DNA of 42,263 nucleotides. Source: Portibacter lacus (GTDB taxonomy: Bacteria > Bacteroidota > Bacteroidia > Chitinophagales > Saprospiraceae). Shown here one piece after another: positions 3,967 through 21,658 of the stretch (positions are counted from its first letter, which is position 1; each line of letters begins with the position of its first letter). Where the stretch lies: positions 1-42,263 of the forward strand of contig NZ_JAJNKA010000023.1 of the NCBI RefSeq assembly GCF_021533215.1, written 5' to 3'. The notes beneath the pieces were generated by a model. The model saw nothing but the letters and a program-made list of their open reading frames with translations, did not search any database and was not told the DNA's origin. The position numbers were made by a program, and so were the translations under genes.

Positions 3967-3996
3967 AAAATACTATTTAGGATAAGCTAAATGATA

Positions 3997-4028
3997 GCAC
4001 TGTTATTTAGTTTTAGCAGTGCCTTATT
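3997..4028 (+). terminator. Probable terminator after the first giant gene
   Basis: Stem GCACTG (3997-4002) pairs with CAGTGC (4017-4022) around a T-rich loop, followed by CTTATTTT. It starts 30 nt after the stop codon of the giant protein gene. Confidence 0.55.
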
Positions 4029-4134
4029 TTCATAAAATAGGATATTGCAAATTGCGATTAAAATCTGAGTTAGAAGTATAATTGAGAAGAAAGGTATATA
4101 CCCTTTTGCATTCCAAATAATAATTTAACGCACT

Positions 4135-4357
4135 GCTTATTATAATTTTGAAGATGGAATCCCTTTTAGTGATAATACAGGCCGCAGCTAAGTTGCTGAT
4201 GGGAGTTTGAATGGGCATGAGGCCATCTTATATGGATTTGCTAAAACAGGCGTTACTTCCAATTGGGTGGATGGACCTAACAACAACAGCCTACCAATAA
4301 ATGTAGCAATGGATTTTGATATGATAGATGATTACATCTCTGTTGCTAATGCTCCAG
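4135..4357 (+). pseudogene. Remnant of a LamG-domain giant protein, forward piece
   Basis: Translation from 4135 gives AYYNFEDGIPFSDNTG, a stop codon, then GFAKTGVTSNWVDGP and AMDFDMIDDYISVANAP. These match the end of one LamG jelly-roll domain and the start of the next in the intact genes at 5342 and 15086 (compare AYYNFNSGVPEANN, GFAKTGSTSNW and ALDFDGVNDYIKIP). One in-frame TAA and the lack of any start or flanking domains make it a decayed fragment. It ends abruptly near 4357, where homology continues on the other strand. Confidence 0.8.
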
Positions 4358-4490
4358 TCTGATTATACAAGACCAAATCCTTAGCGAAAACACATTTGTC
4401 ACAAAAATCTGGAAGGCCATCATCATCTAAATCGCCAAAATTAAATGGACTGGTGATCCCGTTGGATAGGCCTCCAATTCTGAATCGAAA
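4350..4490 (-). pseudogene. Inverted remnant of the C-terminal domain of a LamG-type giant protein
   Basis: On the minus strand, from about 4487 down to 4350, the translation reads FNFGDLDDDGLPDFCDKC and then VFAKDLVLYNQTG. This matches the calcium-loop and C-terminal-domain junction of the two intact LamG proteins (FGDFDADGTPDHCDNC with ELILEN; DSDKDGTPDFCDDC with SLVLKN). It abuts the forward LamG remnant head to head. The simplest reading is one former gene broken by an inversion, or two pieces joined by recombination. Confidence 0.75.
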
Positions 4491-4518
4491 GTATACCTTT
4501 CGGATGGGTAAGTCAGCG

Positions 4519-4548
4519 TTAAAATAGGAAATAAACCAGCAGAATACC
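4519..4548 (+). repeat. Dispersed 30-nt intergenic repeat, copy 2
   Basis: Second copy of the unit also found at 184-213 and 14052-14081. It begins TTAAAATAGGAAAT and ends AGAATACC. It is closer to the 14052 copy than to the first. Confidence 0.55.
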
Positions 4549-4587
4549 ACCTGCGGTTAGTACACCAATATTACTGTTAGGTTATAA

Positions 4588-4652
4588 GGTACAGCGTACC
4601 GTTCCAATTTTGTAAAATGACGCTCGAAAGTTAAAACAAGGTACAGCGTACC
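4588..4652. repeat. Two copies of the inverted repeat GGTACAGCGTACC
   Basis: GGTAC-AGC-GTACC occurs at 4588-4600 and again at 4640-4652. A third, slightly altered copy lies at 14122-14134 before LytTR copy C. Each is a 5-bp inverted repeat around AGC, which suits either a small hairpin or a dimeric protein site. No known operator is recognised. Confidence 0.5.
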
Positions 4653-4790
4653 GGCACAGATAGGAAATTTATGACAGTACAAATTTATCTGGTAGGAAGC
4701 CGAAGTTAAATTAGTCAGAGCCTGCCTACTTGCCTGACTAGAGGTCAGACCATGAGTGTGAATAAATCTAGTGTTCCCTTTCGGAACCAC

Positions 4791-4818
4791 TTTTCGACCG
4801 CTCGGAGTACGAAATCCT
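4791..4818 (+). promoter_or_regulatory. Conserved 28-bp leader core of LytTR copy A
   Basis: The block starts TTTTCGACCGCTCGG, continues AGTACGAAATCCT, and is identical in the leaders of LytTR copies B (9718-9745) and C (14500-14527). It contains TTTCG and CGAAA in inverted orientation 13 nt apart. It lies about 90 nt before the start codon, and conservation continues downstream (GGACAATTCCTTAAA and CTTTAAGAA). A role in expression, for example as a promoter or autoregulatory site, is inference. Confidence 0.5.
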
Positions 4819-4907
4819 TACCCCCGGACAATTCCTTAAATTCATGAAAAGATTCTACCTAACTTTAAGAAGTAAAAGCCTAAAAGTTAATCATAACATA
4901 CCCAATT

Positions 4908-5309
4908 ATGGAGACTAAAAAACAAGTGAGGCCATTGAGGAAAATTCTTCCGATTATCCCGCTCAAGAAAGAATTACTTAATAAGAAGATGGCAATCTCA
5001 TTAAGAAAACAGATTGAAATTATAGATTTAGACCACATCCTTTACTTAAAGTCTGATAGCAATTACACCGAAATTCACTTGAAGGGTGGAAAGAAGATTG
5101 TCAGTTCCATTACTTTAAAAAGATACGTCAATAAATTAAGCTCAGACCGCTTCATTCGCGTTCATCAAAGTTACCTTATTAATAAGTCATCCATTTCCAG
5201 CTATTTAACCAATCAGAACAAAGTTGTCCTGCATAATTCCCAAGAAATTCCAGTCTCGAATAGCAAAAAGGATGGACTATTAAAATATTTGAAAACTTTG
5301 ATGGTGTGA
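4908..5309 (+). CDS. Stand-alone LytTR-domain DNA-binding regulator, copy A
   Basis: A 133-residue protein made of a basic N-terminal tail of about 25 residues and one LytTR domain (about 28-130). Diagnostic LytTR features are visible: DLDHILYLKSDSNYTEIHL, then RFIRVHQSYLIN, then the closing IPVSNSKK. There is no receiver domain, membrane segment or sensor domain, so it is a DNA-binding protein without its own phosphorylation input. It is nearly identical to copy C at 14618 and to the first 50 residues of truncated copy B at 9836. It sits 32 nt upstream of a giant LamG protein gene on the same strand and is probably co-transcribed with it. Regulating that gene or its own leader is the natural inference. 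Confidence 0.9.
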   Translation: METKKQVRPLRKILPIIPLKKELLNKKMAISLRKQIEIIDLDHILYLKSDSNYTEIHLKGGKKIVSSITLKRYVNKLSSDRFIRVHQSYLINKSSISSYLTNQNKVVLHNSQEIPVSNSKKDGLLKYLKTLMV

Positions 5310-5341
5310 ATCACGATACTAAATCTCTAAAAATAATCACT

Positions 5342-8300
5342 ATGTATTTTATTATACAAAAAAAAGAGAAAACAATTCAATTCGCTAGTATTTACAAGCT
5401 TCTTTTTGTCTTAATTCTATTTCTTAGTTCTGTGATATCGTTAAGTGGTCAAATAATTTCTTTCGATTATTCAGGTGGCCCTGTTCAACAATATACAATC
5501 CCAAGCGGGGTGACTAGTGTGGCAATTGAGGTAACAGGAGCAGATGGAGGAAGTAGATTGATTAATACACCCATATATGGTGGAGAAGGAGCAACTGCTT
5601 TTGGTATACTTTCAGTAACACCAGGTGATGTTTTAGAGCTGAGAATAGGGGCCGCTGGGGCAAATGCAACTCCACAGGTAATAGGAGAGAATGGGACTTC
5701 ATTAGTAAATATAGCTCCCGGAGGAGGAGATGCTTCTGCAGTATATTTTATGGGTAATCCCTTGATTGTTGCAGGTGGAGGCGGCGGTAGTGGTGGTGCT
5801 TTATCTGGTATTGGTGGTGTTATTACAATGTCAGGTGGTGCTTCAGGAGCTGATCCAGGAGAAGGAGCAATACCTGGTGGAGTCAATGGAAGTGGTGGGA
5901 GTGGAGGTGGTTGGATTAGTGAATTTATGGCTGATGCTTACGGTGGGGGAGGCGGTGGCGGTTATCTAAGTGCGGGTGCACCTGGATATGATAATCTAAA
6001 TATTGTTGATTTACCAAGCGCTGGTCCTGGAGCTGGAGGTGCCATTCTGAAAGGTGGTGCTGGAGGAACTGGAGTAGATAATGGTTATGGTGGCGCCGGT
6101 GGTGGTGGCGGATATAGTGGAGGTGGCGGTGCTTCTGGATCTGGAGGAACATTTTATCCTGGTTTCAATGCTGGTGGTGGCGGTGGTTCCTTTGTTATTA
6201 ATACGGCAACTAATGCAATGATTAGCGCGGGTACACAAGGTGGTGGAAACGGAAGCAATGGCCAAGTAATAATTAGCTTGAATTGTATTCCTGTAACCAT
6301 TGCGAGTGGAGTGACTAGCAATGCCCCAATATGTATTGGAGAAACGCTTGAATTGAGTGTTTCGCCCTCAGGACAAACACCCTTTACCTATGCTTGGTCT
6401 GGACCTGGAGGAACAATTATAAATGGAGATACTGCGAACCCGACTGTAACTAATCCTGTAAGTGGAGTATACTCTGTAACCGTAACCAACTTCTGTGGTT
6501 CAGTGATCAGTTCCACAAATGTTCAAATAAACACACCTCCAGTAATAGATATATCCGGTCCTTACAACCTTAATACGGACCTTGGGACATGTTTTGGGAT
6601 GACAGATGTAAACCAGTTGTTTTCATTGGTTTCAGCAACCGGAATACCAAGCCCACAAATTTCGATTCCTTTCGATTTTCAATACCCTGTGAACCTTTCT
6701 ACTGTCACAGCAACTGCTAGCAATGTCTGTGGGTCAGACAACGCAACAATCTTCATCAATGTAACCGATATAAATCCCCCGATTGCCTTGTGTAAAAATA
6801 TTAATATTGAAGTAACCGATGGCTTTACGGAGGTAACTGGCGACGACATCGATAATGGCAGCTTCGATGAATGCGGTACTATCCATCCGCTCTATACTGA
6901 CTTATCTGCTCATTCTGGTTTTGCATCTATTGATACCAGAAATGAAGGTCTTGAACTTGTTACATTATATGTGAAAGACCTTTACGGAAATGAAGCTACT
7001 TGTGAAGCTCAAGTGAACATTGTAAAAGACCTTTGCCTCGAAGGAGACGACGGACTGGACTCCGATAATGGTGGACTTCCCGACGCCTGTGATTGTAATC
7101 CTTCTGATCCTTTTAATGATCACATTATCTTAAAGAAAGGTGAAAATAATGCAATGGACTTTGATGGAGTCAATGACATCTTAACAATTCCCAATAACCC
7201 AGCCCTTGTCCCGACAAATAATAATTCACTAACTTTCGAAGCATGGATAAAACCAGATATCGTTAGTGGATTGCAGTCTATTGCTAGCAGTGCTAATTCT
7301 CTTTCCGTGTATAACCTAGCTATTTATTTGACAAATAATCAAGTGAGAGTTACAGCAACTGGCGGAAAATTAGTAACATCTAATGCTACTCTCGCAGCTA
7401 ATGTTTGGACTCATATTGCTATTGTATTTACAGCTAACAGTGTAACGCCAGCATTGTCTAAAATAGAAATTTACATCGATGGTGAACTGGACAACTCATT
7501 GACTGACAACTTCGAGCCAAATAATCTTGGGAATCCTATTCTTTTAGGAAATATCAACGGTGCAAATTGGAGTTACAATGGAAAAATGGATGAAGTTCGT
7601 TTCTGGAGCAGTTCTCGAACTATTGATCAAGTGCAGTTATACAAGGATCGAGAATTGACAGGCATAGAGCCAGGCTTAGAAACCTATTTCAACTTTATTG
7701 ATGGTATTCCAGAAGGAGATAATACCGGAATCACAACCGTGAAAGACTTTTCTAACAATTCATTCAATGCCAGCTTATCAGGATTTGCACAAAGTGGTCC
7801 TGAATCTAATTGGATCAATGAAGATTTGCCAATAAAGAAATTTCAAAGAGACACACTAGCTCCATGTTATTTTTGTCCGGAGCTGACTCAAGTTTCCTTA
7901 GACTTTGATGGAATCGATGATCTTATAACCATTGATAATCACCCTTCCCTCATACCCACGAATAATAATTCAATGACCTTTGAAGCTTGGATTAATCCTA
8001 ATAACGTCGATGGCTTTCAATCCATTGTCAGCAGTGCGAATTCTCTTATCCAATATAACTTAGCGGTTTATTTATACTTTGATAAGTTAAGAGTCACCGC
8101 CTCAAGCGGGAAAGTCGTTACTTCTACTTCGACTATTCCGACTAATTCTTGGACACATATTGGAGTCGTTTTTAATGCAAATAGTTCAACACCTGCTCTA
8201 TCTACTATCGAAATTTATATCAATGGACTTTTAGACATCACATTGACAGATAGTTTCGAGTCAAGTAATCTGGGCAATCCACTTATCTTAGGAAACATAA

Positions 8301-9511
8301 ACGGTGATAATTGGACATTTAAAGGACAAATGGAGGAAGTTAGATTTTGGAATGATGCCAGAACAGCACATGAAATAAATGTCAATCAGTCCAAGGAACT
8401 CTATGGAGGAGAGGATAATTTATCAGCGTACTTCAGTTTTAACAATGGAGTGCCAAACGGAAACAATACCAACCTCACCTTGATTCCAGATTTGAGTAAT
8501 AATAACAATGAAGGCCATCTAAGTGGTTTCGTTAAAGTAGGCCCTAATTCTAACTGGGTTTCTAATACGCTATCATTATCGCCTCCGGAAAATTCAGCTT
8601 TACATTTTGATGGTGTGGATGATGATCTAACAATCCCGAATCAATCCAGTCTAATAGCTACAAATAGCAATGCTGTCACATTCGAAGCTTGGATCTATCC
8701 CGAAAAAGTATCTGGCATAAGCATGATCTATTCTGTTGGCGTATTTCCAAACTTAGATCATCAAATATTCCTTGATGGAAGTCAATTACTCGTCACAGGT
8801 TATGGCTTATCATCATTGCAAGCAGCAACCAACATTTTACCCTTCGAATGGACACATGTTGCCGTGGTTTTTGACATGACTGAGACCAGGCTATATATCA
8901 ATGGTAAACTGGATAATACAAGAATTCAAACTTTGAACAGCGCTAATCAGGGTTTTGATATAAGTTTAGGAAATCAAGCCAATGGTTCTCCATCTAACTG
9001 GAATTTTTTAGGTAAGATGGATGATGTCAGAATGTGGAATGTTACCCGTAGCGAACAGCAAATCTATGATAACTTGCTTCAGGAATTGACTGGAGCAGAA
9101 TTTGGATTAGGAGCATACTATAACTTTAATTCAGGAGTTCCAGAAGCCAACAATTCAGTCTTAACTGCCGTGGATGATCTAAGCGGAAATGGAAATACAG
9201 CATCGGTAAATGGTTTCGCTAAAACTGGCTCAACCTCAAACTGGGTAGCGAGCCCATTAAGATTTGGTGACTTCGATGCGGATGGAACACCAGATCATTG
9301 CGACAATTGCATCGCACCAAAAGAATTGATACTTGAAAATATTGCTTTAGATAGAATTTATAAAGCAACAGAAACAATAACATTAGGGGATGGATTAACT
9401 TTTCCTACTAATGTTCTGACTTTAAGGGCACCTAATATAAAAGTCTCCAATAATGTGGTAATACCACTTAGTGCGTTGATTTATCTAGTTGAGGCGGGGT
9501 GTGAAGAATAG
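5342..9511 (+). CDS. Giant secreted glycine-rich/LamG protein with a non-T9SS-A C-terminal domain
   Basis: A predicted 1389-residue exported surface protein. I prefer ATG 5342 (MYFIIQKKEKT, then a hydrophobic stretch ending LSGQ); a GTG at 5306 overlapping the LytTR stop is an alternative. Domains in order: a glycine-rich beta domain (about 50-325, densest at 140-305 with GGGGGGY runs), an Ig-like module with YAWSGPGG (about 346-390), an HYR-like module (about 476-560), an acidic calcium-loop stretch DSDNGGLPDACDC, three LamG/concanavalin-like jelly rolls (about 601-824, 851-1073 and 1083-1301; FEAWI, WTHI/V, MDEVRFW motifs), another DxDGTPDHCDNC loop, and a C-terminal domain (about 1306-1389) ending AGCEE. 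That last domain resembles the Bacteroidota '3-coathanger stack' C-terminal domain; I hold this name loosely. The first two LamG domains are recent duplicates. A role in carbohydrate or surface binding is inferred from LamG only. Confidence 0.88.
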   Translation: MYFIIQKKEKTIQFASIYKLLFVLILFLSSVISLSGQIISFDYSGGPVQQYTIPSGVTSVAIEVTGADGGSRLINTPIYGGEGATAFGILSVTPGDVLELRIGAAGANATPQVIGENGTSLVNIAPGGGDASAVYFMGNPLIVAGGGGGSGGALSGIGGVITMSGGASGADPGEGAIPGGVNGSGGSGGGWISEFMADAYGGGGGGGYLSAGAPGYDNLNIVDLPSAGPGAGGAILKGGAGGTGVDNGYGGAGGGGGYSGGGGASGSGGTFYPGFNAGGGGGSFVINTATNAMISAGTQGGGNGSNGQVIISLNCIPVTIASGVTSNAPICIGETLELSVSPSGQTPFTYAWSGPGGTIINGDTANPTVTNPVSGVYSVTVTNFCGSVISSTNVQINTPPVIDISGPYNLNTDLGTCFGMTDVNQLFSLVSATGIPSPQISIPFDFQYPVNLSTVTATASNVCGSDNATIFINVTDINPPIALCKNINIEVTDGFTEVTGDDIDNGSFDECGTIHPLYTDLSAHSGFASIDTRNEGLELVTLYVKDLYGNEATCEAQVNIVKDLCLEGDDGLDSDNGGLPDACDCNPSDPFNDHIILKKGENNAMDFDGVNDILTIPNNPALVPTNNNSLTFEAWIKPDIVSGLQSIASSANSLSVYNLAIYLTNNQVRVTATGGKLVTSNATLAANVWTHIAIVFTANSVTPALSKIEIYIDGELDNSLTDNFEPNNLGNPILLGNINGANWSYNGKMDEVRFWSSSRTIDQVQLYKDRELTGIEPGLETYFNFIDGIPEGDNTGITTVKDFSNNSFNASLSGFAQSGPESNWINEDLPIKKFQRDTLAPCYFCPELTQVSLDFDGIDDLITIDNHPSLIPTNNNSMTFEAWINPNNVDGFQSIVSSANSLIQYNLAVYLYFDKLRVTASSGKVVTSTSTIPTNSWTHIGVVFNANSSTPALSTIEIYINGLLDITLTDSFESSNLGNPLILGNINGDNWTFKGQMEEVRFWNDARTAHEINVNQSKELYGGEDNLSAYFSFNNGVPNGNNTNLTLIPDLSNNNNEGHLSGFVKVGPNSNWVSNTLSLSPPENSALHFDGVDDDLTIPNQSSLIATNSNAVTFEAWIYPEKVSGISMIYSVGVFPNLDHQIFLDGSQLLVTGYGLSSLQAATNILPFEWTHVAVVFDMTETRLYINGKLDNTRIQTLNSANQGFDISLGNQANGSPSNWNFLGKMDDVRMWNVTRSEQQIYDNLLQELTGAEFGLGAYYNFNSGVPEANNSVLTAVDDLSGNGNTASVNGFAKTGSTSNWVASPLRFGDFDADGTPDHCDNCIAPKELILENIALDRIYKATETITLGDGLTFPTNVLTLRAPNIKVSNNVVIPLSALIYLVEAGCEE

Positions 9512-9519
9512 AAATGTTC

Positions 9520-9553
9520 ATCTCATGTTCTGGTACATACTAGGACATGAGAT
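9520..9553 (+). terminator. Hairpin after the glycine-rich/LamG gene
   Basis: ATCTCATGTTCT (9520-9531) pairs with AGGACATGAGAT (9542-9553) with a single wobble, followed by AAAATATGG rather than a T run. It starts 9 nt after the stop codon. It is a strong hairpin but not a classical intrinsic terminator. Confidence 0.45.
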
Positions 9554-9835
9554 AAAATATGGTCTTCATTGTCAATTTTAGAAAAGTGTCTATAGAGCTA
9601 GAGAACCTTTCGCTTGAAATATTCGCTTATTTCATAGCATGACTGAAGTTCATACAATGAAGTTGAAGTCCCAATTTATTGTAAGTTTTAAAAGCAGATT
9701 TTACCACTCGGAATCACTTTTCGACCGCTCGGAGTACGAAATCCTGACAGCTGGACAATTCCTTAAATCCATGGATAGATTCTGCCTAACTTTAAGAAAT
9801 AAAAACCCTAAAAGTTAATCCTTTAATACCTAATT
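9554..9835. other. Leader region upstream of truncated LytTR copy B
   Basis: No gene is seen. From about 9620 the sequence is homologous to the leader of copy C over some 200 bp, including a diverged copy of the 32-nt direct-repeat block (9629-9660). The 30-nt dispersed repeat and the GGTACAGCGTACC element are absent here. Confidence 0.6.
9718..9745 (+). promoter_or_regulatory. Conserved 28-bp leader core of LytTR copy B
   Basis: Identical to the cores at 4791-4818 and 14500-14527. The flanking GGACAATTCCTTAAA and CTAACTTTAAGAAATAAA segments are also kept. The leader has therefore been preserved although the regulator it precedes is broken. Confidence 0.5.
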
Positions 9836-10027
9836 ATGGAAAGCAAAACAAAAGTGAGACCCTTTAGAAAAATCATTCCAATTGTTGCTCTCAAGAATGA
9901 TTTTCTTACAACTAAATTGGCAATTTCACTAAGAAACCAGATTGAAATTATAGATCTAGACCACATCCTTTACCTAAAGTCAGATAGACTTGGCCTTAAT
10001 TCAGAAATCAATCCAAGACTATCGTGA
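9836..10027 (+). pseudogene. Truncated LytTR regulator, copy B
   Basis: A 63-codon frame whose first 50 residues match copy C almost exactly (METKTQVRSFRK there, MESKTKVRPFRK here; both continue ...LAISLRNQIEII). After YLKSD the sequence switches to RLGLNSEINPRLS and stops. The SNYTEIHL strand and the DNA-contacting RFIRVHQSYLIN region are gone and are not found downstream in any frame, so this looks like a deletion rather than a simple frameshift. The product, if made, would lack a complete LytTR fold. It lies 97 nt before the L-domain giant gene at 10125. Confidence 0.85.
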
Positions 10028-10124
10028 GTTTAAAACTGAATCATGACCGAAATCTAAAATCAAGAAAATAATCTATTAATAAAAAGCACTTTAATAGCAA
10101 TTCTTACATATAAAAACCAATATT

Positions 10125-13100
10125 ATGAAAAAAATTCAACCCCTCATTACACTAAGATCCTCTTTTTCGTATTTAATCCTCTGCATATTATTTACGACAC
10201 CTCACTTCCTTTCTGGACAGAATGTAACTCTTTCCAATCAAACACAAGTTGATACCTTTTCTCAAACTGAGGTAATAGGAAATTTAATTATCACTGGCGC
10301 TGATATAACAAACCTCGATAGCTTATCAGCTCTTAGTTCTGTAACGGGATATTTTACTATTTCCAACAATCCTGAGCTGCTTAATTTAGAGGGCCTATCT
10401 AGTTTGGCTTCAATAGGTAGACTTCATATATCCTATAATGAATCGCTCCTCAGTTTAGAGGGCCTATCTTCTCTAACTTCATTAGAGCAGATGAGTATAA
10501 TAAGTAATGAATCGCTTTTCAATATTGATGCATTTTCTGCTATTTCTTCGTTATATTATCTTAGAGTTACCGGAAATCCTAAGCTACCCAATCTTAATGC
10601 ACTTTCTTCACTTGATTCCGTGACAGCAGAATTGATTATAAATGGTAACAACCTATTGTCCAACCTAGAAGGTTTATCAGCTCTTAGGTATGTTGGTGGA
10701 AGGGTTGAGATTATTAATAACGAAACGATGAGCAATCTCCAAGGCCTAACAACACTAAATACGGTAGGAGGTTTGCTGATCCGTAATAACCCTATATTGC
10801 AAAGCCTTAATGGGCTCAATAATCTAAGTTGCGTAGGTGGAGTTAGCAATTTCTATAAAACTGGAGGTATAGAAATTTCAAGAAATCCTTCTTTGAAGTA
10901 TATCGAAGGGCTATCAGCCCTTTCTTATATAGAAAAAGATCTAGTAATTGATGACAATGACGGTCTAATCAATCTCAATATCCCACTAAGCCTAGATTCA
11001 CTTAATCAATTAATTATTAAAAACAACGATGTATTACTTAATCTCAATATCTCACCAAATCTAGATTCACTTTCAAAATTAGAGATTAATAACAACGATG
11101 CAATGCTTAATCTAAATGGCTTATCGAAAATTTCTTATGTGGGTTCATTAAATGTCCATGACAACGATGCGCTAATCAATTTCAAAGGTCTTTCATCGCT
11201 TCTTTCTGCTAATATAATTTCGATTTCCTCTAATGCTTCCTTATTAAGTCTTGAAGGATTAGAAGGCCTTACTTCAGTGAGTAGATTAATAACTGTAACA
11301 AACAATCCAGTTTTACAAAATCTGGCTGGCCTATCATCGTTAACTTCTGTTACCCAGTCTATCTCAATAAGTGATAATGACAGCTTGACTAGCTACTGCG
11401 GATTATTTCCGCTACTTAATGGTGGTTCTTATACCAGCGCTACCATCTCTGGAAATGCTGTGAATCCAACAATAACAGAGATTATTGAAAACGGTGCTTG
11501 TATTAGCATTACATGCCCTTCAGACAACACCGCTTTTACTGACATCGGTATATGCTGTGCTGCAATTACTTTGCTTCCTCCGACTTTACAAGGTGGAAGT
11601 TCCACGACAACTTTAGTGAATGATTATAATAATACTTCAGATGCCAGCGATACTTATTTTGTGATGACGACAATAGTCAATTGGACTGCAACGGATGCAT
11701 ATGGAAATCAAAGTTCTTGTTCTCAAAATATTACCGTGATCGATAATGAAGGACCTCAATTTGGAGTTCCTGACCCAAGTTGCTCTATGTATCAATCTTG
11801 TTATGATACTCAAACAATTGCACTTAGTAATAATGAAACGACTTATCAACAAGCATTAGCCACCTGCAATGGAGATGCTGCATGCATTCAAGCGGCCACT
11901 AAAGCCAAATCAAAGGAACTGGAACAAATTCGTAAAAATTTTCAAAGTTGTTTAAATGGAAATACCAATTGTTCGTTACTTCCCATTTCTGGTGCACTGC
12001 CCGATTTGATAGTTTTTGGAGAAGGAGCAAACTGTGAAGCACAAGTTGATAATCCTGGGCCAGTCGTTGCTGAAAACTGTGCAGCTTTTATTTTAACCAA
12101 CGACAATGCAACAGCGACGAATGCTTTGGGTTCTGGAATTTATTCCGAAGGAACGACAACGGTGACATGGACTGCTACCGACCAATTTGGAAATGTCAGT
12201 ATCATTTCTATAGATATTATTGTTACGACTGAAAATTGTGGTAATCCATATTGCGAGTCAATGGGTAATTCTACAGAATATGAGTGGATTGACATGATCT
12301 CTATTAACGGCATTTCTAACCAATCTGGAAATGACGCTGGCTATGCTGATTTTACACAGATTATTTTACCAATAGTAACTGGAAATAACTCGATTCAATT
12401 GACTCCTGGTTTCTCAAATGAAAATTATCGTGAGTATTGGACGATATATATTGATTTTAACCAAGACAGTGATTTTGATGATCCAGGAGAAATAGTTTAT
12501 TATAAGAAATCGCGTTTTCAAATCCAGTCTACATTCAATGTACCAATGACTGCTTTAGAAGGAACTACTGGGATGAGAATCTCCATGAGTTATAATGGAT
12601 GGCAAAGCCCTTGTACATTTTTTAATGAAGGGGAAGTGGAAGATTATACAGTTAATATTTCTTTTTGCGATAATCTTAGCGATGGAGGCCTAATCGGAGA
12701 GGATCAAATACTTTGCGATGGTGCGAATGATCCGTCTGAAATATTGAACATCGTTTCACCCTCAGGTGGAACTGGTAATGTAGAATATCTATGGCTCAAA
12801 AATATCACTACTTCAGAACCTCCAACTGCTCAAAATATGAATGGGTGGGTCGAAATCTCAAACAGTAATGTTGCATCATTTGATCCCGAAACGATAAGCA
12901 CTACAACTTGGTACATGCGTTGTGCTAGAAACGAAGGTTGTATTGAATATTCAGCAGAGTCGAATGTTGTAAAAGTAGCTTTTTCTGAAGAATGTAGTAT
13001 CGATTATTGTGAATCCGAAGGGGCTTCGACAGATTATGAGTGGATCAAGAAAGTGAAATTTGCTACCATAAATAACAACTCTGGGAATAATGGGGGGTAT

Positions 13101-13757
13101 GCAGATTTTACTAACCAAACAGCTGAAGTCAACGCGGGTCATTGGTATGCTCTTATGTTGAAGCCTGGGTTTGCAGGAAATTCATTTAAGGAATATTGGA
13201 GGGTATGGATTGATTGGAATCAAGATGGAGATTTTGAAGACCCTGATGAGCTTGTGATTCAAACGAAAAGTTATGGATCTAGTACATTTACAAGATGGAT
13301 CAATGTACCTTCAGATGCGATTAATGGTAATACTGGAATGCGTGTCAGTATGAAATATGGATCCTATGCTAGCTCATGTGAAAGCTTTAATGATGGCGAG
13401 ATCGAAGATTACACTGTTCATGTTTCTGAAGGTCAATCGCTCAGCGGAAATCCACCTATAGACGAAACGAACGCAGACACAAGAAGTGAAAACCTTGATG
13501 ACATTGCAGAGCTAGATGTCAATGTTTATCCGAATCCGACAACAGACATATTCTCTATAGATATTTCATCAAACATAGAAGGTGAGAGAAATGTACAAAT
13601 TATAAATCAAATAGGACAAATAGTTTATAATCTCGATTCAGTAGAAAATAGCATTCGAATTGATCCTAAAGGGAATAATATTACATCAGGACTATACTAT
13701 ATTGTTATCAGAGAAAACGATCGGGTCATAACAAAACAGCTCTATGTAATTCAATAA
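10125..13757 (+). CDS. Giant secreted L-domain/HYR/GEVED protein with a T9SS C-terminal sorting domain
   Basis: A predicted 1210-residue secreted protein. A signal peptide (MKKIQPLITLRSS to FLSGQN) supports the ATG at 10125. Residues about 25-445 form an L-domain-like leucine-rich solenoid with repeated LxxLEGLSSLTSL units. Two HYR modules (about 460-545 and 625-705; ATDAYGNQSSC and ATDQFGNVS) flank a helical cysteine-containing insert (about 550-625, with DAACIQAATKAKSKELEQIR) that is unusual in such proteins. Two GEVED domains follow (about 706-848 and 959-1105), each with YCES, WxxxIDxNQDxDFDDP-type acidic loops and the closing GEVEDYTV/GEIEDYTV. The last 80 residues (DVNVYPNPTTDIF to LYVIQ) are a T9SS type A domain. 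The architecture pairs it with the gene at 865, not with its LamG neighbours. Export by the T9SS is expected; the ligand is unknown. Confidence 0.9.
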   Translation: MKKIQPLITLRSSFSYLILCILFTTPHFLSGQNVTLSNQTQVDTFSQTEVIGNLIITGADITNLDSLSALSSVTGYFTISNNPELLNLEGLSSLASIGRLHISYNESLLSLEGLSSLTSLEQMSIISNESLFNIDAFSAISSLYYLRVTGNPKLPNLNALSSLDSVTAELIINGNNLLSNLEGLSALRYVGGRVEIINNETMSNLQGLTTLNTVGGLLIRNNPILQSLNGLNNLSCVGGVSNFYKTGGIEISRNPSLKYIEGLSALSYIEKDLVIDDNDGLINLNIPLSLDSLNQLIIKNNDVLLNLNISPNLDSLSKLEINNNDAMLNLNGLSKISYVGSLNVHDNDALINFKGLSSLLSANIISISSNASLLSLEGLEGLTSVSRLITVTNNPVLQNLAGLSSLTSVTQSISISDNDSLTSYCGLFPLLNGGSYTSATISGNAVNPTITEIIENGACISITCPSDNTAFTDIGICCAAITLLPPTLQGGSSTTTLVNDYNNTSDASDTYFVMTTIVNWTATDAYGNQSSCSQNITVIDNEGPQFGVPDPSCSMYQSCYDTQTIALSNNETTYQQALATCNGDAACIQAATKAKSKELEQIRKNFQSCLNGNTNCSLLPISGALPDLIVFGEGANCEAQVDNPGPVVAENCAAFILTNDNATATNALGSGIYSEGTTTVTWTATDQFGNVSIISIDIIVTTENCGNPYCESMGNSTEYEWIDMISINGISNQSGNDAGYADFTQIILPIVTGNNSIQLTPGFSNENYREYWTIYIDFNQDSDFDDPGEIVYYKKSRFQIQSTFNVPMTALEGTTGMRISMSYNGWQSPCTFFNEGEVEDYTVNISFCDNLSDGGLIGEDQILCDGANDPSEILNIVSPSGGTGNVEYLWLKNITTSEPPTAQNMNGWVEISNSNVASFDPETISTTTWYMRCARNEGCIEYSAESNVVKVAFSEECSIDYCESEGASTDYEWIKKVKFATINNNSGNNGGYADFTNQTAEVNAGHWYALMLKPGFAGNSFKEYWRVWIDWNQDGDFEDPDELVIQTKSYGSSTFTRWINVPSDAINGNTGMRVSMKYGSYASSCESFNDGEIEDYTVHVSEGQSLSGNPPIDETNADTRSENLDDIAELDVNVYPNPTTDIFSIDISSNIEGERNVQIINQIGQIVYNLDSVENSIRIDPKGNNITSGLYYIVIRENDRVITKQLYVIQ

Positions 13758-13915
13758 TTAAGTTCAAGCTGCCTGAGAATGGTGTGCTAATATAAAAAAT
13801 GGTGGAGGAGCGTAAAGTAAATACATTAATGTAAAGACCTCATCCATTCACAGCGAGGATGCTTCACCATTGGCAAAAACCAGCCTAGCTAACTGGAATT
13901 TCAGGCATGAGCAAA

Positions 13916-13968
13916 GGTCCAATGTAAAGAATTCAGCCACTGAATTATTGCATTGGACCTTACTTTTT
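13916..13968 (+). terminator. Strong nested hairpin terminator
   Basis: GGTCCAATG (13916-13924) pairs with CATTGGACC (13951-13959). An inner GAATTCAG/CTGAATT hairpin lies between them and TTACTTTTT follows. It is about 160 nt after the stop codon of the GEVED protein gene and is the clearest intrinsic terminator on this side of the island. Confidence 0.65.
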
Positions 13969-14051
13969 AAAGTAAGACAGATACACTTTGAGCCATCGGC
14001 ATAGTCGAAGGTTGCGGCTGGCGATGTGGCGAAGGAGTGATTTTGCCGGTA

Positions 14052-14081
14052 TTAAAATAGAAAATGAACCAGCGGCATACC
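14052..14081 (+). repeat. Dispersed 30-nt intergenic repeat, copy 3
   Basis: Third copy of the unit at 184-213 and 4519-4548. It begins TTAAAATAGAAAATGAACC and ends GGCATACC. Confidence 0.55.
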
Positions 14082-14293
14082 ACTTGTGTGGTTAGTATAC
14101 AAATATTGCTGTTTGATAGCAAGTACAGCGTACCGACACAGTTAGTTTATTAATGACAGTGCAAATCTATCGGGTAAGGAGCCATTATTAATATAAGGAG
14201 ATCCTGCCTACCTTTTATTTTGGTAGGAACCCTTCCTACTTTAATGCATTGGTAAATATGCGATAGCAAGCCTTTTACCAACAATATTCACTT

Positions 14294-14441
14294 ATTTCAT
14301 AGCAGGACTGGAGGTCAGACCATGAGGGTGAATAAATGTAAGACAGAACGCTATGAAGAATTTGAAATTCCGTTATAGAGAGTAAACCTTTTGATTTAAA
14401 TATTCACCCATTTCATAGCAGGACTGGAGGTCAGACCATGA
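14294..14441 (+). repeat. Pair of 32-nt perfect direct repeats, 116-bp period
   Basis: The same 32 nt occur at 14294-14325 and 14410-14441. They start ATTTCATAGCAGGACTGG and end with the small palindrome GGTCAGACC plus ATGA. A diverged copy lies at 9629-9660 before LytTR copy B, and the second half recurs at 4736-4755 before copy A. The repeats look like a tandem duplication within the leader. Confidence 0.65.
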
Positions 14442-14499
14442 AGTTGAAATTCCGTTTTACCGTAAGTTTAAAAAATCGGATTTTACCACTCGGGATTAC

Positions 14500-14527
14500 T
14501 TTTCGACCGCTCGGAGTACGAAATCCT
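14500..14527 (+). promoter_or_regulatory. Conserved 28-bp leader core of LytTR copy C
   Basis: Identical core to 4791-4818 and 9718-9745, about 90 nt before the LytTR start codon. Upstream homology with copy B extends beyond it through TTTTACCACTCGG. Confidence 0.5.
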
Positions 14528-14617
14528 TACCGCTGGACAATTCCTTAAAATCTTGACAAGATACTACTTAGCTTTAAGAAATAAAGAACCCTTAAGTTAA
14601 AACTAATATACCTAGTT

Positions 14618-15019
14618 ATGGAAACCAAAACACAAGTGAGGTCTTTTAGAAAAATCATTCCAATTGTTGCTCTCAAGAAAGATTTTCTTACAACTAAATT
14701 GGCAATTTCACTAAGGAATCAGATTGAAATTATAAATCTAGACCACATTCTTTACTTAAAGTCAGATAGCAATTACACCGAAATTCACTTAGTAGGTGGC
14801 AAAAAAATCGTCAGTTCTATTACCCTAAAAAGGTATGCTAATAAATTAAGTACAGACCGATTCATTCGCGTTCATCAAAGTTACCTTATCAATAAGTCAT
14901 CTCTTTCTAGCTATTTAATCAGTCGGAACAAAGTAGTCCTGTATAATTCCCAAGAAATTCCAGTTTCAAATAGTAAGAAGGAGGGTCTCGTAAATTACTT
15001 GAAAACATTGATGGTGTGA
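14618..15019 (+). CDS. Stand-alone LytTR-domain DNA-binding regulator, copy C
   Basis: A 133-residue protein of the same length and layout as copy A: a basic tail, then a single LytTR domain. YLKSDSNYTEIHL, RFIRVHQSYLIN and IPVSNSKK are all present, so it should be a functional DNA-binding protein. In its N-terminal third it is closer to truncated copy B (KDFLTTKLAISLRNQ) than to copy A (KELLNKKMAISLRKQ), which suggests B and C are the younger duplicates. It has no sensory or receiver domain. It lies 66 nt upstream of the 1950-residue LamG protein gene on the same strand, repeating the arrangement at 4908-9511. Confidence 0.9.
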   Translation: METKTQVRSFRKIIPIVALKKDFLTTKLAISLRNQIEIINLDHILYLKSDSNYTEIHLVGGKKIVSSITLKRYANKLSTDRFIRVHQSYLINKSSLSSYLISRNKVVLYNSQEIPVSNSKKEGLVNYLKTLMV

Positions 15020-15085
15020 GCTATAAAAAAACACCTACAATTCATAAATAGAATAAACTCAAGAATACAATATCAAGGCGCTTCC

Positions 15086-18000
15086 ATGATAATAAATAAC
15101 ATATTTAAATTGAACAAAATGCTTTATACAACTCAACCTTTTCCTAAGAAAGTACCACTTTTTTTACTTGCCATCTTATTAAGTATTTGCACATTTCAAC
15201 AAGCTGATGCGCAATTGACCACTTGGGAAGCCGGCCCAGCTAGTGATTGGTATGCAACCTATAACTGGGGTGGACCTACAGATGCGTCCTGTGATTGTAT
15301 GGGTGGTGCTGAAGATAAAATTTCTGTGTATACTTCGAATATCAGTACTCCGGAATACTCACTTTCAAGACCTCACGCTAATGGTTCTTATTCGGGTACT
15401 GCTAGTTTCGAAATAGGTCCAGGTGCAACTATATCTCGGCAAGCTCAACTTCGACTAACAAACAGCTCTAATAACGATCCTATTTTTGGAAGTTGTGTAA
15501 ATCCATGTGGATATACTCATTCTGGCTCTCAAATAAGCTATACAACAGATGCACTTAGACCTCCAGGAAATGTTATGGGTGTATATAACTCTGATGGTTC
15601 TTACACAGTTTCGTGGACTATTGATACAGATATGCCAGAACTTGAATATTCATTGTTGATCGATTTCAATGGGGTTGAAGAACAAATATTTGGTAGGTCC
15701 GTAACGAGTTTTACCTTTGACTGTGTTAGTGAAGATGATGAAATCAGTTTGCGAACATATGGGCAATCCACAACCTTAGGATCTTCACTCGTTTCATTAG
15801 TTGTTCCTGCTAAACCAAGCACGAACACGAGCATATCAGGAACTGTCGTTACGGAAAGCTGTAATGGTGATCCTGGGGTCATTGTCAAAGCTACACTTGT
15901 TAACCCGGAAGATTTAAGTAACTCTTCTTGTTGGCCTTTGGAGTATATAGATACCGTAAGAGGATCCTCTGGAAGTTTCTCTATCACAGACATTTACCGA
16001 GGTGTAGGGAATGAACTAGCTGAATATGAGGTCGAAGCCTTTTTTCCTGCAACACAAACAGCACCAGCCCGTAGTTTTAGGATTAGAACAACAGGCGCTG
16101 GATGTCCTTATAATCCAACTGATAGTGTAAGAACGGTTGTACTGGGCAATTCGAATCCAAACCCAATGGGCGAATCTTTTATAGATATTACCTCTTTTGT
16201 AATCAGTGGAACGGTAACTTCAGAAATTTCTGGGTGTGGACTTGAAGACGTAGATATCATGGAAGCTCCCGGGGGACAATCAGGAATTACACCTGTCAAA
16301 ACCAATGCAGATGGAAGTTTTGAAATAGTTGTTTCTGAACCAAATAAAGATTATGAAATTTGGGCTAGGTACCGTAATGAATCAATTGCAGATTCAATTC
16401 TTACAGTATCCGTTGAACTTGAAGATGTTACTGGAGTATCCTTTATACATACAGGGACAGATACTTTAAAAGGATTTGTAGGTGCAGGATGTTTTGAATA
16501 TCTTGGTGAACCAACAATTACAATTAGCACCCCAGACAGTAGTTGTGTTATTGCAAATATTACAACAAATTCTTCGGGTTACTATGAAGCCATCCTTCCC
16601 GCAAGGCCACATATTATTGAAGTAACCAGTATAGATCTTACTCCTGGCAATGGGATTACTGATGAAGGGGCCGTTCTCTCCAGTTTCGGAGGTAGTTTGG
16701 AATCAGATTTTGATTCAACTACTGTCCAAGACTTTATATATCGAAAACCGCTGACTATGGAAGTAAATGGATTTCCAGCCCTCAGTTGTGCTGCTATTCC
16801 TTATCCGATTGTAAAACAAGGGAGTAACTACTTCATTTCAATTCTAGTAAAGGAGGGAGGAAATTGCCCAGTAGATACAGGGAAGGTTATTATATATGAC
16901 AATATTGGAGTAAAAGGTGTGGCTGGTCAAATCGTTGATTCCGTAGCTATTTCTCAAGGTGTAGCTATTTACCAGTTGAAGCCAGGGGATCCTAATTTCT
17001 TTGGAGATCAAACGAAAAGCATCACATTTCAAGCAAAAGCTGGAGATGAAATGGCTGAAATAACAAGTAAGGCTGTCGTCACTGGTTCTGTGCAAAGTGG
17101 TAACAATTTCACAACTGCCGCCCCTACAGAACTACCATTTTTGATCCTACGTGATCCACCTGGAGATATGAGTTACAGCGAATTTATGGAGGAGAATGTC
17201 ACAACGATAGCGCAGACCTTTTCGACGCAACTTGGTGGTGGTGTTAAAGTTTGGGCAAACGCAAAAGTTGGTGTGGATATATTTGGATTGGAAATATGGG
17301 GACAAATTGGTGGATCATTTGAAGTGAACAGCTCTGAGTCAACAACAGAGGAATTCGTTCTGGAACTTACAAATTCTCAGACCTTTAAAACTTCTGACAA
17401 TGAAAATATTGTTGGCGAAAAAGGTGATGTCTTTGTTGGAGCAGCGGTGAATTTTATCTATGCTCGTGCCAGAGTATTAGAATTTGACTTGAACGAGTGT
17501 TCATTAAAGTTGGATACCTTACTGATGCTTAATGCAGATGGATTTGAAACGACATTTATTTATACAGAAGGGTGGATAAAAAATCAAGTCATTCCTACAC
17601 GTCAAGAGCTAGCAGATAATCCTACATTGGCCGATTCTATTCGTTACCGTGCAAGAAACGATGTGAAGTTATGGGAGCAAGTGCTCCAGCTTAATGAAGA
17701 ATTGAAAAGAGAAGCTTTACTAGACCCAATAAACATTTCACTTGATGCTGGGAGTACTTATTCAGAGACCAAGACAATTTCAAAATCTAATACAAAGACT
17801 ATTGAGTTTACTACTCAAATTGACATTGGAATTGCAGCTGAAGTTGGATTTGAATATAACAATAATGGAGTAACTGCAGGTGTAGATGTTAATTTTCAAA
17901 CCGTTCTTGGAGAGATCCAATCACAAGCAAATACGAACACAACATCTACAACATATCATCTCGAAGATAGTGAAAAACTGGATAATTCTTTTACAATCAA

Positions 18001-20938
18001 TGTGGCAGAAGATCCAGTATTTGGTACACCTGTTTTTCAAACTTTAGGCGGGCAAACCTCTTGCCCTTATGAGGAGAATACGGAAAGACTGGATGATTTA
18101 ACTATAGTCGTTCAACAACCTATTCAGAATGTTTCCTCAGGTAACGAAGCATTCTTTTTCTTTGATATAATAAGTAGTAGTTATGATCCAGATCCTAGAA
18201 ATTATCGACTTGCTTTAAACTCTAGTTCAGCGGGTGGGGTTGATGTTACCTACGGAGGTGATGGTTTTGCAACTCCGATTCTAGTTCCTGGGGTCGCTCC
18301 GGGTCTGAACTCTATATCAACACCAATCAAAGTGACTAAGCCCAATGGGTTAATGCAATATGATTTTGAAGGGATTCAATTCTTCTTGTACCCAGATTGT
18401 GAGGACACTGAGAGTTATACCCAAGCCGATCTTGCGGTTCCTTTCAGTATTACAGCTTACTTTGATAGCCCTTGTAGTAATGTTGATTTATTAGCTCCCA
18501 ATAACAACTGGGAAATTTCGGGTGCAGATAATAATGAGATAGAAGTTACCATGGCTGGATATGATCTAAGCAGTGATTTTGATCAAATTATCATGCAATA
18601 CAGAAAAGATGGTGGAAATTGGCAGCCTTCGAATGTTGTCAGAACGAAGGCGCAATTGTCAGTAGGTTCTACTCCTGTTTTTTGGGATGTTACTGGTCTT
18701 GAGGATGGTGAATATAGTATACGTTTTCGATTAAATTGTGGAAATATTTTTTCCTTTTCCAATAGAGTAAATGGTTTAATAGATCGAAATGCTCCTATTG
18801 TTTATGGTATAGAAAGACCTACCAATGATCGATACGTTTCAGGTGGAGAGATTTCGGTAGATTTTAATGAAATAATTGATTGCGAGGCTCTAGCCAGCGG
18901 GACGGTGTATATGAAGACTTTACCTGAAAATGAGTTTGTTCCAGTTAGCGCTATTTGCGACAGTAACAAGGTCGTTATCCAACTCATGAATGAGATTGGA
19001 CATTTGTATAATCAAGCATATGAAGTGGGAATTGTGGGAATTACAGATTTATTCAATAATGAAAGACCTGCTACTGTAAAATGGGAATTTGTGGTAAGTG
19101 AACCGGATAGTGATGGCGATGGAAACCCAGACACCAAAGATATCTGCCCCGGTGGTGATGATTTTATCGACAGAGACATGGACGGATTGCCAGATGATTG
19201 TGATTGTCTTGCGAATGATCCAGGAAATGGGCGTTCCTTAACGAAAGCAGCTTTAGATTTTGATGGTGTTAATGATTATATTAAAATTCCTCATAACCCT
19301 GCTTTTATTCCTACTGCTACAAATGCGGTCACAATAGAAACTTGGATCTATCCAAAGGCAACTGCCAATGAACATGGAATTATCTCTCAGTCAGGAAACT
19401 GGCCAAACCGTAATCACCAAATACTACTTAACCATGCTTCAAAGATGATACATGTCACAGGAATAGGTGTAAATACTTTGACTTCAAATAGTGAAATTCC
19501 ATATAATAAATGGTCTCATATTGCGGTCGTATTTAACCTCAATGAAACCAAATTATATATCAATGGGAAACTCGACAACACGAGGGTTCAAACTTTGTCA
19601 ACTGAAGATCTTGGCTATGATATTACCATCGGTAATCAAGAATCTGGAGGACCTGGTATCTGGAATTGGCAAGGAAAAATGGATGAGATGAGGTATTGGG
19701 ATCATGCACTGACCCAAGGAGACATCCAGCAAAATATGAATAAAGAACTTGGAGGATTTGAATCAGGTTTGCTTGCTTATTATGATTTTAATGAAGGGAG
19801 TCCATTTGCAGATAACTCTGATCTTTCAGAAATCATTGACAAATCAGAAAATGGATTTAATGGAACAATGACAAATTTTGCAAAATCGAATATTACTTCT
19901 AATTGGGTAAAAACGCCTACCCAAAAATTAAATGTTGCTTATAAGCTTTGTGATTCACCTTGTCCTGACACGACCAGAGTTGCATTAGACTTTACACTTA
20001 ATGGCTCAAATGCTCCAAATATATCAGTGCCAAATGTATTAGGTAATATTCCCACTTCTACACAATCTGTCACTTTTGAGGCGTGGATAAAGCCTAAGCC
20101 TATTACCATGTCTGAAACTACTACAATTATACAGTCAACTTATTATGGTGTATCTGGATTCCCTATTAATAATTATTTTGTTTCTTATTCCTTTGATGGT
20201 CACATAATATTATATATTGCCAGCGAAAGTTTTATGTCCAATGAAGTCATTACATTCGATAAATGGACGCATATTGCTATAGTAATGGACAAGACCCATA
20301 TTTCTTTATACATAAATGGGCAACTTGATCAGACAACTGCTTGCACTTTCCCTGAGGGTAACTTGATTGCACCTACAACTTCTCTATCGAGAGCTAATGC
20401 AAGCTTACGTTTTCGAGGTGCAATGGATGATGTGCGATTTTGGGATGGTGTGAGAACTCCTCAACAAATTGAAGATAACTATGAATCTGAGATAGTTGGA
20501 GATGAGGCTAATCTAGTTGCTTATTACAACTTTAATGATGGAGTACCTGGCGGAAATAATGGTTCGATCACTGAAATTCGAGATATTAGTGGAAACGGCT
20601 TGCACGGAGTTATGGGTAACTTTAAGAAGTCTGGAGATGATTCAAATTGGGTACCCAGTTTAATCGGTTTGAAAGATTCAGACAAAGACGGTACACCTGA
20701 TTTTTGTGATGATTGTAGCGCTAAGAAATCCTTAGTTTTAAAGAACATGAACTTCATAGGAAACCAGACTTTTAGAGCAGAAGATAGAATAATTCTAGGA
20801 GAAAACATTGGGCTTCCAGCTAATGCGAATATCAAATTCAGAGCACCAGAAGTTAGGATATTAAACCCAAATGTGACACAAAGTGGAATGGTGATAACAG
20901 TACAAAAAGATCCTTGTGATATTATAGTGGAAGAATGA
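15086..20938 (+). CDS. 1950-residue secreted multidomain LamG protein with a non-T9SS-A C-terminal domain
   Basis: The largest protein in the window. A signal peptide ends at about residue 43 (QADAQ); an in-frame ATG at 15119 would give a tidier one and may be the true start. In order: a cysteine-bearing N-terminal region (about 44-240), carboxypeptidase-regulatory/SdrD-B-like beta modules (about 245-550; ISGTVVTESC, ISGTVTSEISGC, TNSSGYYEA), an unfamiliar 300-residue segment (about 690-992) with long alternating Ser/Thr stretches around a helical part (RYRARNDVKLWEQVLQLNEE), an Ig-like module (about 1248-1338), DSDGDGNPD and DRDMDGLPDDCDC calcium loops, two LamG jelly rolls (about 1388-1610 and 1630-1855; FEAWI, MDEMRYW, MDDVRFW) and a C-terminal domain (about 1863-1950) like that of the gene at 5342. 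Both contain a DGTPDxCDxC loop, LGxxxxxPxN and RAPxxxxxN. Surface location is inferred. Confidence 0.88.
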   Translation: MIINNIFKLNKMLYTTQPFPKKVPLFLLAILLSICTFQQADAQLTTWEAGPASDWYATYNWGGPTDASCDCMGGAEDKISVYTSNISTPEYSLSRPHANGSYSGTASFEIGPGATISRQAQLRLTNSSNNDPIFGSCVNPCGYTHSGSQISYTTDALRPPGNVMGVYNSDGSYTVSWTIDTDMPELEYSLLIDFNGVEEQIFGRSVTSFTFDCVSEDDEISLRTYGQSTTLGSSLVSLVVPAKPSTNTSISGTVVTESCNGDPGVIVKATLVNPEDLSNSSCWPLEYIDTVRGSSGSFSITDIYRGVGNELAEYEVEAFFPATQTAPARSFRIRTTGAGCPYNPTDSVRTVVLGNSNPNPMGESFIDITSFVISGTVTSEISGCGLEDVDIMEAPGGQSGITPVKTNADGSFEIVVSEPNKDYEIWARYRNESIADSILTVSVELEDVTGVSFIHTGTDTLKGFVGAGCFEYLGEPTITISTPDSSCVIANITTNSSGYYEAILPARPHIIEVTSIDLTPGNGITDEGAVLSSFGGSLESDFDSTTVQDFIYRKPLTMEVNGFPALSCAAIPYPIVKQGSNYFISILVKEGGNCPVDTGKVIIYDNIGVKGVAGQIVDSVAISQGVAIYQLKPGDPNFFGDQTKSITFQAKAGDEMAEITSKAVVTGSVQSGNNFTTAAPTELPFLILRDPPGDMSYSEFMEENVTTIAQTFSTQLGGGVKVWANAKVGVDIFGLEIWGQIGGSFEVNSSESTTEEFVLELTNSQTFKTSDNENIVGEKGDVFVGAAVNFIYARARVLEFDLNECSLKLDTLLMLNADGFETTFIYTEGWIKNQVIPTRQELADNPTLADSIRYRARNDVKLWEQVLQLNEELKREALLDPINISLDAGSTYSETKTISKSNTKTIEFTTQIDIGIAAEVGFEYNNNGVTAGVDVNFQTVLGEIQSQANTNTTSTTYHLEDSEKLDNSFTINVAEDPVFGTPVFQTLGGQTSCPYEENTERLDDLTIVVQQPIQNVSSGNEAFFFFDIISSSYDPDPRNYRLALNSSSAGGVDVTYGGDGFATPILVPGVAPGLNSISTPIKVTKPNGLMQYDFEGIQFFLYPDCEDTESYTQADLAVPFSITAYFDSPCSNVDLLAPNNNWEISGADNNEIEVTMAGYDLSSDFDQIIMQYRKDGGNWQPSNVVRTKAQLSVGSTPVFWDVTGLEDGEYSIRFRLNCGNIFSFSNRVNGLIDRNAPIVYGIERPTNDRYVSGGEISVDFNEIIDCEALASGTVYMKTLPENEFVPVSAICDSNKVVIQLMNEIGHLYNQAYEVGIVGITDLFNNERPATVKWEFVVSEPDSDGDGNPDTKDICPGGDDFIDRDMDGLPDDCDCLANDPGNGRSLTKAALDFDGVNDYIKIPHNPAFIPTATNAVTIETWIYPKATANEHGIISQSGNWPNRNHQILLNHASKMIHVTGIGVNTLTSNSEIPYNKWSHIAVVFNLNETKLYINGKLDNTRVQTLSTEDLGYDITIGNQESGGPGIWNWQGKMDEMRYWDHALTQGDIQQNMNKELGGFESGLLAYYDFNEGSPFADNSDLSEIIDKSENGFNGTMTNFAKSNITSNWVKTPTQKLNVAYKLCDSPCPDTTRVALDFTLNGSNAPNISVPNVLGNIPTSTQSVTFEAWIKPKPITMSETTTIIQSTYYGVSGFPINNYFVSYSFDGHIILYIASESFMSNEVITFDKWTHIAIVMDKTHISLYINGQLDQTTACTFPEGNLIAPTTSLSRANASLRFRGAMDDVRFWDGVRTPQQIEDNYESEIVGDEANLVAYYNFNDGVPGGNNGSITEIRDISGNGLHGVMGNFKKSGDDSNWVPSLIGLKDSDKDGTPDFCDDCSAKKSLVLKNMNFIGNQTFRAEDRIILGENIGLPANANIKFRAPEVRILNPNVTQSGMVITVQKDPCDIIVEE

Positions 20939-21204: not shown

Positions 21205-21624
21205 TTAGAACATTTCTGTTCCTGCAAAATGGAAGTTAGCTTCTATTAATGCATTCTCATCGCTATCTGAACCGTGTACTGCATTTTCTCCTATACTAGT
21301 AGCATATGCCTTTCTTACTGTTCCTTCTGCTGCTTCAGCAGGATTAGTAGCTCCGATTAATGTTCTGAAATCTTCCACTGCATTGTCTTTTTCTAAAACT
21401 GCAGCTACGATAGGACCTCTAGACATAAATTCTACAAGCTCTCCGTAGAAAGGTCTTTCACTATGTACAGCGTAAAATTCACCAGCTTTTTCCGGAGAAA
21501 GCTTAGTATATTTCATCGCTTTGATTCGGAAACCACCAGCTTGTATCATCTGAAGAATATTTCCAATATTTCCAGCCTCTACTGCATCTGGTTTGATCAT
21601 GGTAAACGTGATATTTCCTGCCAT
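21205..21624 (-). CDS. ndk: Nucleoside diphosphate kinase
   Basis: Transfers the gamma-phosphate of ATP to nucleoside diphosphates through a phosphohistidine, balancing NTP and dNTP pools in the cytoplasm. The 139-residue product has the family's usual length, the opening [18 protein letters not shown], and the active-site NAVHGSDS with the catalytic His at residue 117. A longer open frame starting at 21753 exists, but the ATG at 21624 matches the family start, follows an A-rich leader, and has a promoter -7 box 27 nt upstream that would lie inside the longer version. A clean terminator follows, so it is probably monocistronic. Confidence 0.97.
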
Positions 21625-21650
21625 TTTTTTCTGTTTTTTTAAATTTGGTG

Positions 21651-21658
21651 CAAAAGTA
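21651..21658 (-). promoter_or_regulatory. Bacteroidota -7 box of ndk
   Basis: TACTTTTG on the minus strand fits the TAnnTTTG -7 consensus of the Bacteroidota primary sigma factor. It lies 27 nt upstream of the ndk start codon. No convincing -33 TTG is seen at the usual distance. Confidence 0.6.

Follow-up and report, generated by a model that had tools for sequence, protein, structure and literature searches.

In a 42,263-nt stretch of Portibacter lacus DNA (the window, which is contig C15 of the 6.3-Mb genome), we describe most of a chromosomal array encoding giant exported proteins, the genes of which recurrently lie behind a conserved leader and a gene encoding a stand-alone LytTR regulator. 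Sequence comparisons indicate that this array is probably run by a two-component system, with the leaders serving as target promoters of its REC-LytTR response regulator. Since the shared control region matches the promoter element found beside one sensor-regulator pair in related bacteria, expression of the row of giants is probably induced by an external signal. In the proposed mechanism, a TPR-type HisKA_2 histidine kinase and the REC-LytTR regulator, both encoded at the head of the array, would control the downstream giants; the regulator would bind and activate the leaders, and each leader would drive one operon, gaps of 32-66 nt suggesting cotranscription of the LytTR gene and the giant gene.

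The leader is predicted to be a LytTR-type promoter. It is composed of ACCNYTCGG direct repeats (9-12-9), a third half-site and, 31-32 nt later, a -7 box. On the plus strand of the window, the genome-wide pattern search located three direct repeats: CCCTTTCGG-12-ACCGCTCGG in leader 1 (4776-4805, an exact match), and ACCACTCGG-12-ACCGCTCGG in both leader 2 (9703-9732) and leader 3 (14485-14514). The third half-site is degenerate in leader 1 (ACCCCCGGA, 4820-4828, 23 nt after the second half-site) and leader 2 (ACAGCTGGA, 9747-9755), and reads ACCGCTGGA in leader 3 (14529-14537). The -7-like box is TAACTTTA in leaders 1 (4860-4867, 31 nt after the third half-site) and 2 (9787-9794), and TAGCTTTA in leader 3 (14569-14576). 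Contig C1 adds two further leader-LytTR copies to these three; the 9-12-9 repeat with its third half-site, degenerate in two cases, was present in all five array leaders, as was a TAnnTTTA box following the repeats. The usual -7 box of Bacteroidota is TAnnTTTG. With the half-sites in helical phase and the last of them ending 31-32 nt before the -7 box, the layout is that expected of a LytTR activator that would sit beside RNA polymerase.

Leader and LytTR gene together form a 298-300 nt repeat in the window. A genome-wide search with the leader gave five matches, with E values between 3e-71 and 0.0015, each immediately preceding a LytTR copy; the next-best match had an E value of 0.43. The core pattern of the leader occurred exactly only at the five leaders, not at random locations, with three two-mismatch matches versus three in the control. 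The pattern MCCNYTCGG-N12-MCCNYTCGG had seven exact matches in the genome, namely the five leaders and two sites on contig C8. We also considered the leader as an interspersed repeat and rejected this, as only the palindrome upstream of it, GGAGGTCAGACCATGA, is spread genome-wide (25 matches at up to two mismatches versus none in the control); this interspersed repeat lies just upstream of leaders, at 4740-4755, 14310-14325 and 14426-14441.

Both exact C8 sites are located downstream of a kinase and a REC-LytTR regulator, which are the closest paralogues of the array-head pair (46% and 50% identity, respectively; the other regulators of the genome reach about 28% or less over comparable length). 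This locus has no stand-alone LytTR gene, and its sites lie 57 and 76 nt before the start codons of an eCIS_core-domain protein and a Recep_L protein with a type IX sorting tail. The eCIS_core-domain gene (L126, 9106-9600) stands directly behind one of them. A stricter pattern, applied to 388 genomes of the family, yielded 29 sites in 21 genomes (4 in P. lacus and 25 foreign), compared with 9 for the reversed control, by our own tally. Nine of the 25 foreign sites were found 0.2-3.3 kb downstream, on the same strand, of a regulator match in seven genomes (G193, G134, G186, G060, G057, G169 and G073), with a rough chance probability of 4e-29. In the 14 foreign genomes whose regulators scored best, a loose scan of the regulator's strand found an exact site in seven, a one-mismatch site in four, a two-mismatch site in one, and none near the regulator in two (G008 and G001). 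A -7 box (at least 5 of 6 positions) lay exactly at +32 after the last half-site in 14 out of 21 sites, with no other offset represented more than three times; boxes at +32 were seen even at some foreign sites not beside a listed regulator (in G150 and twice in G197). Most of the sites read at the regulator loci precede genes with signal-peptide- or lipoprotein-like starts, as judged by eye; one precedes a REC-only gene and one a second regulator copy. The suggestion of the original prediction, made from the window's sequence, that the leader is a regulatory element was borne out; LytTR-type repeats and a -7 box recur beside orthologues of the regulator. Moreover, the REC-LytTR regulator often has behind it a small receiver-like protein (L211 3674-4126, L212 1583-2032, L213 1949-2368, L219 1975-2391 and L126 9688-10116), possibly a third component of the system.

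Several observations weigh against control of the array by the two-component system. The array was seen in one genome only, and the closest foreign orthologue of the array-head regulator, from the same genus (G001, L224), has no site within 15 kb. No listed regulator adjoins 16 of the 25 foreign sites, and three of these 16 lie inside long open reading frames (ORFs), as chance matches would. At +32, neither C8 site has a good -7 box (4 of 6 positions). Taken singly, the repeats of a leader are only weakly unusual, an 8/9 pair arising in 2 to 7% of shuffles, and the stand-alone LytTR protein could bind the same repeats.

The array head lies on contig C1, at the end of which the kinase gene (217181-219088) and the REC-LytTR regulator gene (219095-219835) are followed by a LytTR gene (220107), a LamG giant, a second LytTR gene (225468) and a second LamG giant. 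The pair (C1:217181-219835) is next to its predicted targets, and its contiguity with the window depends on an insertion-sequence junction. We take C1 and C15 to be neighbours split by an insertion sequence because of their inverted ends, a 9-bp duplication and the match of a rebuilt empty site. Similar inverted ends lie at the terminus of C1 and at the beginning of C15 (by eye, 20 of 24 positions agree; automated local score of 44 versus 41 for the best of 200 shuffles), both adjoined by the duplication AGCAAACCT. In the window, this junction covers 1-130, with the insertion sequence end at 1-121 and the target duplication at 122-130. The empty site rebuilt from the C1 and C15 flanks corresponds to a spacer between the C1 cassettes, with identity over 70 bases.

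Within the window, the recurrent cassette claimed by the original prediction is real: three homologous leaders, with two intact and one truncated LytTR gene, are each followed by a giant exported protein on the same strand. The plus-strand order is a Recep_L giant without a leader, leader 1-LytTR-LamG giant, leader 2-truncated LytTR-Recep_L giant, and leader 3-LytTR-LamG giant. The first Recep_L giant (838-3966), with a type IX sorting tail, is the array member without a LytTR gene, and no leader-repeat match was found upstream of it in the genome-wide pattern search. Behind it lies debris of a C1-type LamG giant (4132-4481), made up of a plus-strand LamG piece (4132-4350) and an inverted piece (4365-4481), which are 85% and 82% identical to the C1:225922 giant (tblastn); a profile match lies on the minus strand at 4359-4454. 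The first stand-alone LytTR gene (4908-5309, 133 aa, Pfam LytTR E 2.3e-20) precedes a LamG giant (5342-9511) whose first ATG is 32 nt past the LytTR stop codon, the listed ORF beginning with GTG at 5306. The truncated gene (9836-9988; 51 homologous residues, 88% identical) precedes a Recep_L/GEVED giant with a type IX sorting tail (10125-13757), and the third LytTR gene (14618-15019, 133 aa, E 2.2e-18) precedes a LamG giant of 1950 aa (15086-20938). A profile search (E up to 0.001) found Por_Secre_tail in both Recep_L giants and no recognised C-terminal sorting domain in the LamG giants, which have tandem LamG domains behind both intact genes and a common C-terminal region of their own. The shared C-terminal domain of these two giants, which had been noticed earlier, was confirmed (33% identity over a 99-column alignment). 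Beyond the array, the next notable ORF (21205-21753) is on the opposite strand.

The two intact LytTR proteins match PF04397 with 73.1 and 66.7 bits (cut-off 22.6; profile positions 2-97 of 98). Their homology, as first described, was clear; their "near-identity" was overstated, as they are 82% identical. Scoring ten candidates per genome, we found full-length relatives of the 133-aa protein (E below 1e-57) in 2 of 398 family genomes, P. lacus and G131; the two other genomes of the genus had no relative at E up to 1e-20, and an order-wide search of 396 genomes (E up to 1e-30) matched only P. lacus and, more weakly, G114, G131 not being among the matches. P. lacus has five intact copies, including one at C32:8502. 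In all six intact subfamily members found, the LytTR gene is followed, after 32-66 nt, by a LamG giant of one family, the C-terminal halves of which are related and the heads different. The linkage of LytTR gene and giant recurs in the full genome and in G131, as expected from the original prediction.

This linkage is special to the subfamily rather than general to LytTR-only genes, since a same-strand next gene with a signal-peptide-like start, assigned by a home-made hydrophobicity rule, was present at 7 of 11 other stand-alone LytTR loci versus 18 of 33 REC-LytTR loci (excluding four loci for which the gene caller gave no LytTR ORF and four larger-ORF loci without a next gene). We thus rejected a linkage for every stand-alone LytTR gene. 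Strict coupling of giants to LytTR genes was likewise not universal: a G114 giant (L145) with an N-terminus like that of the window giant at 5342 has no LytTR gene before it, and the closest stand-alone LytTR gene of that genome (L088) is on a different contig with no same-strand exported gene adjoining. Giants with this C-terminal domain in G041, G091 (C100) and G189 are cut by contig ends and were left out of this judgement. Among the LytTR frames listed for the low-contig genomes G126, G128 and G247, a single one (G128, 116 aa) was shorter than 175 aa. The C-terminal P-V-S-x motif has Asn in the four array LytTR proteins versus Arg in 30 of the 48 REC-LytTR proteins picked up by a pattern.

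Natural exceptions separate two modules, one formed by the leader and the two-component system and the other by the stand-alone LytTR gene and the LamG giant. The element occurs without an intact LytTR gene at C8 and in leader 2, and the LytTR-LamG pair occurs without the element at C32 and G131 (L055), where no 9-12-9 repeats were found in the leaders. The latter two loci have an adjoining REC-GerE regulator in common (63% identical), which speaks for control of the array by its own two-component system, and they also share a divergent Reg_prop sensor gene. The stand-alone LytTR gene would thus be the first gene of LamG operons and accompany LamG giants even under another type of promoter. 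Its product may, tentatively, tune its own operon or the siblings at the same or related repeats; this is the weakest step of the mechanism. More speculatively, the LytTR protein of each operon might compete or cooperate with the shared response regulator at the ACCNYTCGG repeats, such that expression of one giant would alter that of its siblings; such a trans-acting choice among alternative surface giants without DNA inversion, with leader and LytTR gene kept alike by recombination while heads diverge, seems improbable.

These exceptions also bear on a positive autoregulatory loop like that of HdrR/BrsR, in which the stand-alone LytTR protein would run the leader, with cross-talk between copies, and the two-component system would be incidental. 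We consider this unlikely. The LytTR gene is indeed the first behind each leader, the repeats match the published 9-12-9 form, and leader and LytTR gene stay similar while giants diverge. However, the same element is present at REC-LytTR loci without a stand-alone LytTR gene (at C8 and in seven other genomes), was not found ahead of the stand-alone LytTR genes of C32 and G131, and was retained in leader 2 despite truncation of the LytTR gene; moreover, among neighbours read by eye, no membrane inhibitor gene adjoins the LytTR genes, a giant exported protein being next in all six intact cases. The original reading of the leader as a sign of control by the stand-alone LytTR protein was therefore not supported.

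Leaders and LytTR genes might instead be similar only because the segment was recently duplicated or recombines, common descent or gene conversion keeping the copies alike, and its repeats would then have no regulatory meaning. In a blastn comparison of the cassettes at 4908 and 14618, homology stops precisely with the LytTR stop codon, and the giant sequences reject the copy grouping seen for LytTR (p-AU 2.4e-5). The LytTR proteins at 4908 and C1:225468 are 90% identical and their giants 41%, with higher agreement at four-fold sites in the LytTR genes (0.68 of 37) than in the giants (0.30 of 93); the two C1 giants share 79% identity across their final 560 residues, and their LytTR proteins 59%. 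Gene conversion or exchange between cassettes is likely, not proven, because the grouping of the giants cannot be rejected with so short a LytTR alignment (p-AU 0.16 to 0.28) and the four-fold-site difference of the C1 pair is not significant (p 0.095). As a full explanation, duplication is very unlikely, given that the repeats and the -7 box spacing recur in other genera beside the same regulator. Least probable of all is a cluster for phase or antigen switching, with a single active promoter being moved between giant genes by DNA inversion or shuffling: several exported proteins do lie behind homologous leaders and the debris includes an inverted piece (4365-4481), but all leaders have the same orientation and their own -7 box, no recombinase was recognised by eye among the 25 ORFs of at least 120 aa in the window, and the window contains no inverted repeats of at least 40 nt (only four imperfect pairs of 15-20 nt, 2.8-10 kb apart, in 3960-15200), which also tells against the earlier idea of switchable surface proteins.

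Other features were observed around the array. The spacers shared between giants (130-300; C1:224766-225100) contain, as read by eye, short hairpins in rows, built as stem-CAAAC/CATAC-stem with differing stems, which may be terminators or form a repeat family. The window also has a second pair of kinase and REC-LytTR regulator (36564-39408 and 39537-40988; regulator only 22% identical to that of the array head), followed by an exported protein. A release factor 2-like gene (23817-24897, identified by eye) is interrupted by an in-frame TGA at a CTTTGAC site, as in the usual programmed frameshift. A tmRNA gene (41523-41893) lies just before tandem 122-bp repeats (41945-42263, three copies in part), which run off the contig end.

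Control of the array by the two-component system would provide a predicted promoter code for a system of many Saprospiraceae (half-site ACCNYTCGG, 12-bp spacer, -7 box 32 nt on), directed at exported proteins, and would turn "conserved leaders" into a testable regulon. It also singles out the puzzle of why LamG giants should have a private stand-alone LytTR gene. In the open-licence literature, we found no paper joining LytTR with Saprospiraceae, LamG or Lewinella.

LytTR-type two-component regulons include those of AgrA, ComE and YpdB. The array resembles these in its histidine kinase and REC-LytTR regulator and in the 12-bp-spaced direct repeats upstream of target promoters, but differs in having giant exported proteins, encoded in tandem, as its targets, in the half-site ACCNYTCGG combined with a Bacteroidota -7 box, and in the stand-alone LytTR genes within the target operons. 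In the HdrRM/BrsRM systems, a receiver-less LytTR gene is likewise first in its operon with LytTR-type repeats upstream of the promoter, those of BrsR having the 9-12-9 form ACCACTTAT-12-ACCGCTTAT (PMC6193735). In contrast to these systems, no membrane inhibitor partner was seen in the array, the partner being a giant exported protein, and the repeats are found in addition at REC-LytTR loci that have no stand-alone LytTR gene.

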